A DNA stretch of 46,213 bases from positions 1 to 46,213 of the forward strand of contig JADGQM010000002.1 of NCBI GenBank assembly GCA_017881795.1, given 5' to 3'. This stretch comes from Syntrophobacteraceae bacterium (GTDB taxonomy: Bacteria > Desulfobacterota > Syntrophobacteria > Syntrophobacterales > Syntrophobacteraceae). The notes below the pieces were generated by a model. The model had not been told where the DNA came from. It saw only the letters and a program-made list of their open reading frames with translations, and searched no databases. The position numbers were made by a program, and so were the translations under genes. Below are positions 5,715 through 30,175 of this stretch, piece after piece; the stretch's first letter is position 1, and every line of letters starts with the position of its first letter.

Positions 5715-6167
5715 ATGCACAAAAAACTGACATTGTTTTCAACGGTTCTTCTTGCACTCTGGCTGGCGAGCTGCAGTCATTCACCTACTCCCACGGCTAA
5801 GGTGGCTCAGCAGCCGACGCCCCAAGCCGCGCCTCAGGCCTCGTCAACTCAGGGAACCCCTGCTGCGGTTGTCACCGAAACCGAATTTGACTTCGGTGTA
5901 GTGTCAGAAGGCAACGATTATGTGCACGATTTCAAGATTGCCAACAAGGGCGACGCCGTTCTTGAAATCATAAAAGTCCTCCCTGCCTGAGGGACCATGC
6001 TTGTCCGTTTTGACCGGACAATCCCTCCCGGCGGCGAGGGCTCAGTGCGAATTAGTTTGAATCCCAAGGGCTGTACAGGAACTGCCAAGAAAACTGCGTT
6101 CGTGAAAACTAACGATCCCAAGAACCCTATGCTCTCTGTAACGGTGAAAGGACGGCCAGCGCCCTGA
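5715..6167 (+). CDS. DUF1573 lipoprotein with in-frame TGA (predicted selenoprotein)
   Basis: The ATG follows AGGAGG and encodes a lipoprotein signal with lipobox LASC (Cys20), then a Pro/Ala/Thr-rich linker and one DUF1573 domain (from about residue 56). The frame meets TGA at codon 92, then continues without another stop to codon 150 through conserved DUF1573 sequence (FDRTIPPGGEG, KGCTG, KTNDP). The TGA falls where family members have the first Cys of SCGC, giving A-Sec-G-T. A hairpin 10 nt after the TGA fits a bacterial SECIS. ORF callers would stop at 5990 and call a 91-residue protein. A homologous gene at 29051-30175 has the same TGA, which argues against a random nonsense mutation. 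Likely location is the outer membrane or periplasm; function is unknown, plausibly redox or metal binding. Confidence 0.82.
5991..6025 (+). promoter_or_regulatory. SECIS-like stem-loop downstream of in-frame TGA
   Basis: Directly after the TGA (5988-5990) come GGGA, a 6-nt bulge, a perfect 7-bp stem TTGTCCG/CGGACAA (6001-6007 with 6015-6021) closing the loop TTTTGAC, and TCCC pairing with GGGA. The apical loop lies about 18-24 nt after the TGA, within the range known for bacterial SECIS elements. Confidence 0.7.
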
Positions 6168-24961: not shown

Positions 24962-26143
24962 ATGATCGGTATCTCAAAGCTTTATTGTGGCACTGTCGAG
25001 CCTTCTGACGCCTTGCGCTACGGGCGCCAAAGCGGGCATCTGCCTTCGCACCTCCTGCAGTTTTCCCGGGACAAGAAACCGGTAGTCGTGTGGAACATGA
25101 CCAGACGCTGCAACCTGAAATGTGTCCACTGCTATGCCCACGCCAGGGACGAGGACTTTCCGGACGAGCTGTCAACCCGGGAAGGAAAAAGCGTTCTTGA
25201 TAATCTAGCGGAATTTGGCTGCCCGGTGGTGCTTTTCTCCGGCGGCGAACCGATGATGCGTCCTGATCTCATGGAACTTGCCTCCCATGCCGTTGGCAAA
25301 GGCATGCGCGCAGTTATTTCCACCAACGGGACCTTGATTACTCCTGCTGCTGCTCAGCAGCTCAAAGAGATCGGATTGTCCTACGTGGGGATCAGCCTTG
25401 ATGGCATGGAAGGCGTGAACGATCGGTTTCGGGGAGTGCGGGGGGCGTTCCGTAAAGCGCTTGATGGCATCGCTGCATGCCAGGAAGCAGGGATCAAGGT
25501 GGGGTTGCGGTTTACCATGAATCGCCTCAATTATCGTGAAATACCCGCCATTTTCGACCTGCTGGAGGAACGCGACATCCCCCGGGTTTGCTTCTATCAT
25601 CTGGTTTATGCCGGAAGAGGCAGCAAACTCATGGATGAAGACCTCTCCCATGAGGAAACCCGGACGGTCGTGGATCTCATTATCGAGCGAACCGACGACC
25701 TTCATCGGCGCGGCAAGATGAAAGAGGTCTTAACTGTAGATAACCATGCTGATGGCCCCTACCTGTACCTCCGGATGCTCAGGGAAGGATCGCTCAGGGC
25801 TTCTGATGTCCTGGAACTCCTGCAGATGAACGAGGGCAACAATTCCGGGCGCGGCATCGGCTGCATCAGTTGGGACGGCAGGGTCCATGCCGATCAGTTC
25901 TGGCGCGATTACAGCTTCGGCAATGTCAGGGAGCGGCCTTTCAGTGAGATCTGGACCGACCTTTCCAATCCTTTGATGAAGCAACTTAAAGACAAGAAAC
26001 TTCATGTAAAAGGGCGCTGCAGCCGTTGTCGCTGGTTGGATATCTGCGGGGGGAATTTCCGGGTGCGTGCTGAAGCTGCAACAGGGGACCTGTGGAGTCC
26101 AGACCCGGCGTGCTACCTTACGGATGAAGAAATAGCCCGGTAA
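24962..26143 (+). CDS. ahbC: AhbC: 12,18-didecarboxysiroheme deacetylase (radical SAM)
   Basis: 393 residues. The radical SAM motif CNLKCVHC (Cys50, 54, 57) binds the SAM cluster, with GGEP and the usual barrel. A C-terminal SPASM-type Cys region (GRCSRCRWLDICGG) should bind further Fe-S centres. In the siroheme-dependent route AhbC removes two acetate side chains of didecarboxysiroheme to give Fe-coproporphyrin III. This identity is based on the N-terminal GISKLYCGTVEPSD, the C-terminal PDPACYL, and on hemB and ahbD following directly. Its paralogue ahbD lies two genes downstream. Confidence is high for radical SAM, good for AhbC. Confidence 0.88.
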   Translation: MIGISKLYCGTVEPSDALRYGRQSGHLPSHLLQFSRDKKPVVVWNMTRRCNLKCVHCYAHARDEDFPDELSTREGKSVLDNLAEFGCPVVLFSGGEPMMRPDLMELASHAVGKGMRAVISTNGTLITPAAAQQLKEIGLSYVGISLDGMEGVNDRFRGVRGAFRKALDGIAACQEAGIKVGLRFTMNRLNYREIPAIFDLLEERDIPRVCFYHLVYAGRGSKLMDEDLSHEETRTVVDLIIERTDDLHRRGKMKEVLTVDNHADGPYLYLRMLREGSLRASDVLELLQMNEGNNSGRGIGCISWDGRVHADQFWRDYSFGNVRERPFSEIWTDLSNPLMKQLKDKKLHVKGRCSRCRWLDICGGNFRVRAEAATGDLWSPDPACYLTDEEIAR

Positions 26144-26180
26144 CGATCTTATTGTTGCTCGATAGAGGAGGGTGCTTCCC

Positions 26181-27158
26181 GTGTATTTTCCCGAATATCG
26201 CCCAAGAAGGTTTCGTCGTACCGAAAACCTGCGCCGCATGATTCGCGAAACGGTGCTCACCGTGGATCAACTGGTTTACCCTCTCTTTGTCCTGCCGGGC
26301 AAAAACATAAAGAACCCCATTCAATCTATGCCGGATGTCTATCAGTTTTCGGTTGATCGGCTCATGGATGAAGTGGCGACCGTGGTGCGTCTCAACGTGC
26401 CGGCAGTGTTGTTGTTCGGCCTGCCTCAGGAGAAGGACGAGGAGGGAAGTGAAGCTTTTTCGGATCACGGCGCGGTTCAGAAAGCCACCCTGGCCATTAA
26501 GGAAAAATACCCCGACCTGGTGGTCATAACCGATGTTTGCTTGTGCGAGTATACCAGCCACGGCCACTGTGGGCTGCTGCAAGGGGAGCAGGTCGACAAT
26601 GATGCTACGCTGGAGGTGTTGGCAAGGGTCGCTCTCTCTCATGCTCGTTCCGGCGCCGATATTGTGGCCCCCTCCGATATGATGGATGGTCGCGTGCGGG
26701 CCATTCGACAGGCCCTGGATGAAAACGGCCATGACCAGGTCGGCATCCTCTCCTACTCAGCCAAGTACTGTTCTGCCTTCTATGGACCGTTCCGCGAAGC
26801 GGCCGATTCTGCTCCCAAGTTCGGTGACCGGCGTGCGTATCAAATGGATATGGCCAATGCGGATGAGGCTCTGCGCGAGATCGCCATGGACTTGGAGGAG
26901 GGAGCGGATATGGTCATGGTCAAGCCGGCCCTACCCTACCTGGACATTATTCGCCGCGCCAAGGACCGCTTCGATTGGCCGGTGGCGGCGTACAATGTCA
27001 GTGGTGAATATTCCATGATCAAAGCCGCGGCGGCTCAGGGCTGGCTGGATGAGAAACGGGTGATGATGGAAGTCCTCTTCTCCATCCGGCGAGCGGGAGC
27101 AGATCTCATTTTGACCTATTTTGCCAAAGAAGCTGCAAAAGTGCTCCTGGAGAATTGA
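26181..27158 (+). CDS. hemB: Porphobilinogen synthase (delta-aminolevulinate dehydratase)
   Basis: 325 residues. GTG 26181 lies 9 nt after GAGGAGG and is preferred to the GTG at 26172. The zinc-site Cys are present in [14 protein letters not shown], so it is the zinc-dependent type. The Schiff-base lysines are in [14 protein letters not shown] and [10 protein letters not shown]. The enzyme joins two 5-aminolevulinate molecules into porphobilinogen, a step shared by all tetrapyrrole routes. It sits between ahbC (37 bp) and ahbD (12 bp), linking early and late steps of the same pathway in one operon. Confidence 0.97.
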
Positions 27159-27170
27159 ACGAGGAAGTGC

Positions 27171-28238
27171 ATGAAAAGGGAACATAAAAGCGGGAGTGAG
27201 GCCAATTTGCGCCTGGTGGCATGGGAAGTGACGCGCACTTGCAACCTGGCCTGCATTCACTGCCGCGCCGCCGCGCTGGACCGCCCTTATGAGAACGAAC
27301 TAACGACGGCGGAATGCTTCAAGCTGTTGGATGAGATTCAAACCTTTGCCAGTCCGATCATCATCCTGACCGGTGGCGAACCCCTGTTGCGTCCGGATAT
27401 CTTCGAGATTGCAGCTTACGGAAACCAGAAGGGCTTCCGTATGACCATGGCCGTGAACGGGACCCTCCTCTCTGCCGATAAAACCAGAAGGATGCAGGAA
27501 GCAGGAATTCAGCGGATCAGCATCAGCCTGGATGGCGCGACAGCCGCATCGCATGATGCCTTCCGCCAGGTTCCCGGGGCTTTTGAAGGAGCACTACGTG
27601 GCGTGCAGTACGCCAGGGAGGCGGGCCTGGATTTTCAGATCAATACCACCATTACGCAGCAGAACCTCCTTGAGCTCCCAGCCATTCAGGAGCTCGCGAT
27701 CTCCCTCGGTGCTGTGGCCCACCACATTTTCCTGCTCGTTCCCATGGGCCGTGGCAAAGACCTGACGGAGCAGGGTATCAACGCCGAGCAATATGAAGAA
27801 ACGCTGCATTGGTTCTATGAACAAAGAGACCGGACGCCGCTACAGTTGAAAGCGACCTGTGCCCCTCATTATTATCGCATCCTACGGCAGCAGGCCCGAT
27901 CAGAAGGACGTGAAGTGAGCTTTAAGACTTTCGGCCTGGATGCCATGACCCGCGGTTGTCTGGGAGGGGTCGGCTTTGCCTTCATTTCCCATGTCGGACA
28001 GGTACAGCCCTGCGGCTACCTGGAACTCTATTGCGGCAACATCCGGGAACAATCCTTTCGGGAAATCTGGGAGAACTCCACCATTTTCAGGGATCTGAGG
28101 GATTTTGGCAAGTATCGGGGAAAGTGTGGGGGGTGCGAGTACGTGAAGGTATGCGGCGGCTGTCGCGCCAGAGCTTATGAAAGCACGGGCGACTACCTCG
28201 CGGAAGAACCGCTTTGCCTGTATCGTCCGAAGAAGTGA
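27171..28238 (+). CDS. ahbD: AhbD: heme synthase (radical SAM, Fe-coproporphyrin III decarboxylase)
   Basis: 355 residues with the radical SAM motif CNLACIHC (Cys24, 28, 31), GGEPLLRPD, and a C-terminal auxiliary cluster region CGGCEYVKVCGGCRARAYESTGD. AhbD oxidatively decarboxylates two propionates of Fe-coproporphyrin III to vinyls, giving protoheme. It is paralogous to AhbC; the two differ in the C-terminal Cys spacing, and the C-terminus here matches the heme synthase type. The genes for siroheme formation and AhbA/AhbB decarboxylase are not in the window. Confidence 0.9.
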   Translation: MKREHKSGSEANLRLVAWEVTRTCNLACIHCRAAALDRPYENELTTAECFKLLDEIQTFASPIIILTGGEPLLRPDIFEIAAYGNQKGFRMTMAVNGTLLSADKTRRMQEAGIQRISISLDGATAASHDAFRQVPGAFEGALRGVQYAREAGLDFQINTTITQQNLLELPAIQELAISLGAVAHHIFLLVPMGRGKDLTEQGINAEQYEETLHWFYEQRDRTPLQLKATCAPHYYRILRQQARSEGREVSFKTFGLDAMTRGCLGGVGFAFISHVGQVQPCGYLELYCGNIREQSFREIWENSTIFRDLRDFGKYRGKCGGCEYVKVCGGCRARAYESTGDYLAEEPLCLYRPKK

Positions 28239-28302
28239 AAAGTAGGGGCAGTGACTCGCTTCTAGACTGCTGGCGAGCGCGTGTGCCATCTGCATCCAAG
28301 GA

Positions 28303-28340
28303 CCTATCAACCATCAACTAATAACCACTAACCGATAACC
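28303..28340. repeat. ACCACTAACC-type degenerate repeat string
   Basis: ATCAACCATCAACTAATAACCACTAACCGATAACC lies between ahbD and the rhodanese gene. A related string in the other orientation occurs at 34987-35013 near cysE. Confidence 0.5.
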
Positions 28341-28360
28341 GATACATAAGAGCCAAAAAC

Positions 28361-28846
28361 ATGAGTCATCAATGGTTTCAGGCGATATGGCAAAGCATGG
28401 CCGTTCTCATCATTGCTCTGGGAATCGGCCTCAGCGTCAATATCCTACGCGATCAAAGACTACCGCTTGTTCCGGATTTGTCTACGGGCGTTCAGATCAA
28501 TCCTCCCTCGGGAGGAGACAACCTGATCATTGCCCTGGAAGATGCCGAAGCTCTCTACTTTGATCAACAAGCAGTATTCCTTGATGCCCGTTCACGGGAA
28601 CAATACCGCAGGGGGCATATTGAAGGCGCCAAGAGCCTGCCATGGGAAGATTTTGACCGACGCTTCCCGGAGGCTATGTCGGGTATTCCTCGTGATGCGA
28701 TTATTATTACTTACTGTGATGGCGAAAGTTGCAACCTCAGCAGGGAACTCGCTTCAGCACTCATGGCCAAGGGCTATGGCCAGGTGCGAGTCCTTGTTGA
28801 TGGATGGAAACTCTGGCAGCAGTTTAACCTTCCCACAGGACAGTAG
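28361..28846 (+). CDS. Membrane-anchored rhodanese-like protein
   Basis: 161 residues. A single N-terminal membrane segment (SMAVLIIALGIGLSVNIL) is followed by one rhodanese domain: FLDARSREQYRRGHIEGAKSLPW and the active-site loop YCDGESCNLS with the catalytic Cys, then VRVLVDGWKLW. The orientation predicts a periplasmic domain. Such proteins carry or transfer sulfane sulfur. It converges on the DUF1573 selenoprotein candidate, and related genes of this kind are often close to DUF1573 genes (recollection, not tested). Confidence 0.9.
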   Translation: MSHQWFQAIWQSMAVLIIALGIGLSVNILRDQRLPLVPDLSTGVQINPPSGGDNLIIALEDAEALYFDQQAVFLDARSREQYRRGHIEGAKSLPWEDFDRRFPEAMSGIPRDAIIITYCDGESCNLSRELASALMAKGYGQVRVLVDGWKLWQQFNLPTGQ

Positions 28847-29050: not shown

Positions 29051-30175
29051 TTACTGCGGGGTGCTTTGGGGCGCTTCATCCGGGTTGGGAGGCGCCTGAG
29101 CGCTGGGGGGGCGAGTGAGCGGCGTCTCGGCACTGTTTATTATATGGATCTGGACCTGTTGTGGTTCGTCAGATTGCACATCGGTTTGAATCGTTAGGGT
29201 TGTCTGTTGTCGGCCTCCTGCCCCGGTTGGGAGACCTTCCATTTTGGGGGTAATCTCCAGGCTGAAGCCGGGTTCCTTGGGGAGAGGCTCCTGCTTGACC
29301 TCGATCAATTTTTCATCGTAAGTGAGTTTCTTAATTTGGAAAGGCTTGTTACGGTTGCTGACAACGAGCACCTTTCCCGTGCGCACGGGTTGTTGTGCAG
29401 CCATTTTGCCGATCAACACCATCAACGGTTTGACGGTGACGTCCCCTTCGATGAATCCATTAATTCGGATCATAATCTCCGGTTTTTCCTGGACGTCTGT
29501 ATAACATTTAATAAACCCGTTGTAGTTCCCCTGCTTTAAGAGATTGGCGACTTTCAGACGATAGTGTTTCCCCTCTTCCACTGTTTCTAATTTATAGCGG
29601 ATCTTGTCTTCGAGGTTGCTCTCGACTTTCTGAATCGCGAATCGTTGCGTAGAACTAACCAAATCGATGGTTTTTTCCTCCAACTGGTCTGCCATCCCCC
29701 GGAAAGCAACGTTGCCGGCAGGTTGAATTTCGATCAAGGCCTTAACGGCTCCCTGCAAAACCAGCATAGTTCGCTGATTTTGAGGGTCATTGCTAAACAC
29801 GGTGGCGGTCTTCTTGACATTTCCCTGGTAGCCTTTGAGATTAACCTTAAGAGTTACTTTGCCCTCGCCTCCGGGAGGGATAGCCCGATCAAACTGGGCT
29901 ACAGCGCACCCTCAACCAGGGCGCACTTGCTCGATCTGCAATTCCGTTTTGCCTGTGTTCTTGACCGTATAGTCATGAGAAACTTCGACCCCCTCAAAGA
30001 CTTCACCAAAATCATAGGTCGCTTCCGGCACCTGGATCACCGGTGCATCCTGAGAAGCCGCCGGGGCTGCGGGCTTGGGCTGAGCAGGATTGCCGGCAGG
30101 GTCGGCAGCATGAGCCCAACTCAGGCAAGCGCACCATGCCGCAATAAACAAAGCTGATTTGAAGACACGATTCAT
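29051..30175 (-). CDS. Exported DUF1573 protein with in-frame TGA (predicted selenoprotein)
   Basis: Full frame of 374 codons plus stop, split in the ORF track into 29912-30175 and 29051-29800. A signal peptide (cleavage after AHA) precedes a Pro/Ala linker and a DUF1573 domain (YDFGEVFEG, SHDYTVKNTG). TGA is codon 88 in the context V-R-P-G-TGA-G-C-A, followed by AQFDRAIPPGGEG and SNDP. It replaces the first Cys of the SCGC motif, giving a Sec-Gly-Cys pair. After the domain the protein continues about 220 residues of unknown fold ending in a Pro-rich tail. The TGA aligns without gaps with the TGA of the gene at 5715. A SECIS-like hairpin follows at the same distance. Truncated reading at TGA would remove three quarters of the protein. 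Confidence 0.84.
29877..29911 (-). promoter_or_regulatory. SECIS-like stem-loop downstream of in-frame TGA
   Basis: After the TGA (29914-29912, minus strand) come GGG, a 7-nt bulge, the 6-bp perfect stem TAGCCC/GGGCTA around the loop AGTTTGATC, and then CCC pairing with the first GGG. The stem begins 10 nt after the TGA, the same as in the gene at 5715, and both loops contain TTTGA(C/T). Confidence 0.7.

Follow-up and report, generated by a model that had tools for sequence, protein, structure and literature searches.

Two genes in the window (the whole 46,213-nucleotide stretch of Syntrophobacteraceae DNA analysed here) each contain an in-frame TGA followed by a potential hairpin; are these TGAs read as selenocysteine (Sec), and are the hairpins the SECIS elements that direct it? 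Nucleotides are numbered below from the T of the TGA (position 1), so that position p is window coordinate 5987+p in gene 1 and 29915-p in gene 2. The features are as follows:

5715..6167, + strand: gene 1, predicted short DUF1573 selenoprotein, 150 aa with TGA translated as U, Sec at codon 92 in the motif LPA-U-GT
5988..5990, + strand: putative Sec TGA of gene 1
6001..6021, + strand: hairpin 1 of gene 1, positions 14-34, 7 bp, loop UUUUGAC
6022..6041, + strand: hairpin 2 of gene 1, positions 35-54, UCCCUC/GAGGG(C)
29051..30175, - strand: gene 2, predicted long DUF1573 selenoprotein, 374 aa, Sec at codon 88 in the motif RPG-U-GC
29912..29914, - strand: putative Sec TGA of gene 2
29881..29901, - strand: hairpin 1 of gene 2, 6 bp plus a basal G-U, loop AGUUUGAUC
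29861..29880, - strand: hairpin 2 of gene 2, UCCCUC/GAGGG(C)

Both products are DUF1573 (Ig-like, HYDIN-type) proteins, each gene has one internal TGA besides its terminal stop, and both TGAs align with the Cys of Cys homologues and the TGA of TGA homologues. Gene 1 matches PF07610 at 4.6e-16 and, at 92.8 bits, falls just below the curated cut-off of 100 for the NCBIfam model NF041425; gene 2 matches PF07610 at 3e-24 and exceeds the NF041425 (OS_HP2_seleno) cut-off with 120.1 bits. Export signals, judged by eye, are present at both N-termini, that of gene 1 being a signal peptide with a lipoprotein-like LASC. A PDB search gave no significant match. Adjoining gene 2, window positions 24962-28843 encode two radical SAM/SPASM proteins and a rhodanese-like protein.

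Hairpin 1 in the two window genes

The first-pass annotation placed a perfect stem exactly 10 nt past each TGA, and the sequence bears this out: the gene 1 TGA is followed by 10 nt, TTGTCCG (6001-6007), the loop TTTTGAC and CGGACAA (6015-6021), and the gene 2 TGA (29914-29912, minus strand) by 10 nt, TAGCCC (29901-29896), the loop AGTTTGATC and GGGCTA (29886-29881). RNAfold recovers both stems, at -8.6 and -9.9 kcal/mol, respectively. Dinucleotide shuffles of the short stretch gave z = -3.4 for gene 1 (0 of 200 as good) and z = -1.8 for gene 2 (13 of 200). The UUUGAY loop that had been proposed as a shared RNA signal is the Phe-Asp codon pair, and it is missing from other TGA clades. An Rfam scan of the window gave no match.

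Do these stems go beyond what the protein code requires, as had also been proposed? In protein-preserving synonymous-codon shuffles neither gene alone was significant (p 0.18 for gene 1 and 0.15 for gene 2); a palindrome is favoured by the residues V-A-x-F-D-R-A/T-I, and folding is equally good in 15-18% of the synonymous recodings, so the two window hairpins by themselves prove little. This figure also speaks for a different account, in which each TGA is an ordinary stop or a pseudogene lesion and the codons for V-A-x-F-D-R-A-I produce the stems by coincidence. Because two gene copies alone could not prove a hairpin, the case for it rests on the homologue set.

Hairpin 1 among homologues

We collected DUF1573 matches from the family, order, class and phylum of the source and aligned them at the Sec codon; 126 are distinct TGA genes and 71 are Cys genes. 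(A protein search of genome contigs gave only 4 loci, of which two are TGA genes of Desulfobacteraceae.) All 126 TGA homologues have the TGA at the same codon and a frame that stays open beyond it, and these comparative data refute the reading of the TGAs as stops or lesions; the wobble covariation, its absence from Cys genes (both below) and the presence of Sec machinery also stand against that reading, to which we give almost no credence.

A scan of 30-nt segments along the gene against synonymous shuffles gave, for the TGA genes, mean z-values of -1.79 at +6 and -1.69 at +12, values near 0 upstream, and again -1.18 at +30, a second dip; the corresponding values for 69 Cys genes are -0.51, -0.29 and 0.01. 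Minimum free energies of -7.5 or lower are found in 88% of the TGA genes versus 16% of the Cys genes (Mann-Whitney p 7.5e-14).

Because of the reading frame, third codon positions face each other in pairs 15-33 and 18-30 of hairpin 1. Among 105 gap-free TGA genes, 79% have a standard pair at 15-33 versus 42% expected, with GC, CG, UA, UG, GU and AU all occurring, and this pair tops the 1128 third-position column pairs with z 8.6 (the next real pair has 4.8, and the one value listed above 15-33 comes from an invariant column pair and is a division artefact). Thinning the set to under 80, 70 or 60% identity leaves 71-78% paired versus 42-44% expected. The first-pass annotation had named equal pairing in Cys homologues as the observation that would count against it, and such pairing is not seen: in 36 gap-free Cys genes pair 15-33 forms in 44% versus 43% expected, which is the chance level. 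The structure with both helices (the second is described below) fills 84.5% of paired cells in the TGA alignment (A2), where slid versions reach at most 62%, and it has 53 double changes versus 21.8 when shuffled; in the Cys alignment (A3) the value is 47.3% versus 47.9% shuffled, again chance. Clades with other amino acids have different stems in the same place (CUGUUUC/GAAACAG and CUGUCUC/GAGACAG, for example), and the Cys copy in the source genome (L011) lacks hairpin 1. The protein tree has poor support, and with too few supported branches the tree-based independent-pair tests lacked power. These comparisons demonstrate computationally that an RNA structure is under selection in TGA genes only; the compensatory pairing that the two window genes were insufficient to establish is thus found across the homologue set.

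Some homologues depart from the common arrangement. L025 (genome G012) has Thr (ACA) at the Sec codon and retains hairpin 1 fully, and the congeneric L061 (G013) has Ser there and a decayed hairpin; since G012 and G013 still have SelA and tRNA-Sec, this looks like recent Sec loss with a relic SECIS. L077 (G017) has TGG (Trp), one base from TGA, and retains hairpin 1 in part. In short paralogues of the gene 1 type (L012, L051, L059 and L080, for example) the second Cys of UGC is often gone (UGS, UGT, UGL or UAS), which leaves a lone Sec. L094, L084, L056, L071, L054 and L058 lack one codon between the TGA and the stem, and in these both hairpins appear to have shifted 3 nt towards the TGA as a unit. 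A subgroup with R..P (L026, L027, L028 and L034-L036) can form the stem with an extra U bulging from the 5' strand, UUG[U]CCGG/CCGGCAA, which recalls the E. coli fdhF SECIS with its bulged U.

A second hairpin directly behind the first

The second dip in the fold scan led us to positions 35-54, where a further hairpin was found with pairs U35-A54, C36-G53, C37-G52, C38-G51, U39-A50 and C40-G49. Its synonymous-shuffle z is -1.61 +/- 0.09 in TGA genes versus -0.08 +/- 0.22 in Cys genes. Codon choice is biased where the pairing needs it: CCT is used at codon +12 in 61 of 96 cases versus 23 of 124 elsewhere in the same genes, GAG at +16 in 77 of 80 versus 60 of 130, and GGA at +17 in 69 of 104 versus 54 of 297. 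RNAalifold calls both hairpins in a 22-sequence subset selected from one register, and it calls no structure with all 73 aligned sequences.

Could hairpin 1 alone be the SECIS, the signal at hairpin 2 stemming from some other selection, for instance for a Shine-Dalgarno-like GAGGGA or for preferred codons in IPPGGEG? The protein sequence IPPGGEG constrains most of the paired columns of hairpin 2, so that its covariation comes from few independent events, which favours this view. The changes that do occur nevertheless fit pairing and not a Shine-Dalgarno-like motif. U39-A50 is replaced by G/A39-U50 in GGVG and GGLG genes, such that with GTG or TTG at codon +16 the Pro at +12 is encoded by CCG or CCA instead of CCT in 9 of 10 cases, and in the AALASA/TLVSA clade AUU/GAA becomes AUA/GUA. 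The signal is, moreover, absent from Cys genes. We therefore regard a role for hairpin 1 alone as rather unlikely, and prefer a recoding element to which hairpin 2 probably also belongs.

The first-pass annotation had noted a GGG behind each TGA and a CCC behind each stem, both of which are present in the two genes, and had paired them as a lower clamp. An element made of a single hairpin plus this GGG-CCC clamp would resemble the longer E. coli fdhF hairpin. RNAfold lends it some support: in gene 1 GGG 5991-5993 competes for CCC 6023-6025, giving 70% clamp versus 30% hairpin 2, and in gene 2 hairpin 2 is the likelier partner of CCC 29877-29879, with about 60% versus 30% for the clamp. Two GG-CC pairs are always possible, pairs 4-38 and 5-37 being fixed by Gly and Pro codons. 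The third pair (6-36) forms in only 29% of the 105 aligned TGA genes, however, position 6 being a C opposite C36 in 52 of them, and over the homologue set the mean probability of clamp pairs 4-38 and 5-37 is 0.02 versus 0.63 for hairpin 2. We consequently rejected the clamp as a conserved feature, and consider it improbable as the functional element. From the codon choice, the AUU/GAA to AUA/GUA change and the shuffle z, the CCC forms the 5' arm of hairpin 2 in most homologues. The openly accessible literature searched gave no description of the second hairpin or of the covariation of the element, and a second hairpin directly behind the first is apparently reported here for the first time.

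Selenocysteine machinery

The source genome contains SelA (1.8e-187), SelB (384 bits) and tRNA-Sec (74.8 bits), as well as five or more formate dehydrogenase-like genes that contain a Sec TGA in frame. Among the 128 genomes compared, 9 have no SelA match. Five of these (G059, G089, G145, G197 and G269) have only TGA-less DUF1573 forms, and their tRNA-Sec is absent or borderline (48.8-50.8 bits, scores that turn up in control genomes too); G123 scores 72.6 bits for tRNA-Sec and has Cys in the Sec column of the alignment; and G092, G131 and G220 carry TGA genes and have tRNA-Sec scores of 58-77 bits. G092 is a single contig, 99% complete, with a TGA-DUF1573 gene, a tRNA-Sec of 76.5 bits and no SelA match at 1e-60.

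A probable tandem-hairpin recoding element

We hold with considerable confidence that genes 1 and 2 encode DUF1573 selenoproteins in which hairpin 1 is the SECIS and hairpin 2 probably forms part of the recoding element. The homologue comparison indicates that the hairpin past the in-frame TGA very probably directs Sec insertion in both genes. The SECIS bound by SelB is most likely hairpin 1, and we predict that hairpin 2 is probably part of the same element. The following course of events would fit: both genes would encode periplasm-directed proteins whose TGA is decoded as selenocysteine; the base of hairpin 1, 10 nt past the TGA, would lie at the mRNA entry of the ribosome when the UGA is in the A site; SelB would bind hairpin 1 and deliver Sec-tRNA-Sec; and hairpin 2, stacked directly behind hairpin 1 and conserved with it in TGA genes, may shape or slow the approach of the ribosome or prevent misfolding of hairpin 1.

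The element is best read as a tandem-hairpin form of the bacterial SECIS that in most genes is without the apical-loop G of the current model (below). More tentatively, and at somewhat less than an even chance in our judgement, the DUF1573 genes might represent a distinct class of bacterial SECIS with two stacked hairpins, a first loop of the UUYGA type, and a second hairpin, with a GGY loop, that is needed for efficient recoding and is possibly the real SelB contact. To our knowledge, published bacterial SECIS models consist of a single stem-loop. Bacterial SECIS elements are notoriously difficult to define, and 126 natural TGA variants with Cys controls give direct covariation support for one in an uncharacterised selenoprotein family; the same set indicates a second conserved hairpin and a failure of the apical-G rule in most members.

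Comparison with known systems

The DUF1573/OS_HP2 selenoprotein family (NF041425) with its UGC motif has already been published (PMC9312934, PMC13188914). The window genes have the protein family, the Sec position and the UG[C] motif described there, and gene 2 scores above the model's cut-off; gene 1 differs in belonging to the short paralogue group that often lacks the second Cys (UGT, UGS or UGL) and in scoring under the cut-off.

The bSECIS consensus model, as restated in Fig. 2 of PMC13188914, has a stem of 4-16 bp, a loop of 3-9 nt, 16-37 nt from UGA to loop, a minimum free energy of -7.5 kcal/mol or lower and, as its main sequence rule, a G in the first two loop positions. Hairpin 1 has 7 bp and a 7-nt loop in gene 1 and 6-7 bp and a 9-nt loop in gene 2, with spacings of 17 and 16 nt and energies within the limit; among the 126 homologues, 115 fit the stem rule, 117 the loop rule, 107 the spacing rule and 111 the energy rule. 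The apical G is present in gene 2 (AG...) and absent from gene 1 (UU...), and 22 of the 126 homologues have it and 104 do not. The SECIS-like identity first suggested for these hairpins thus agrees with every computational test available except this one. Gene 2 conforms to the whole model, and most DUF1573 members fit its stem, loop size, spacing and energy, but as a group they differ from it in the missing apical G and in the second hairpin that directly follows. Because a subset of bacterial SECIS elements fails the model (PMC13188914), we file the DUF1573 element as a variant that would act like a bSECIS.

The formate dehydrogenase SECIS elements of the source genome likewise place a hairpin directly past a Sec TGA within the coding region and would use the same SelB; their loops contain GG (GGGCU, GGUCU and GGC), whereas those of the DUF1573 genes mostly do not begin with G.
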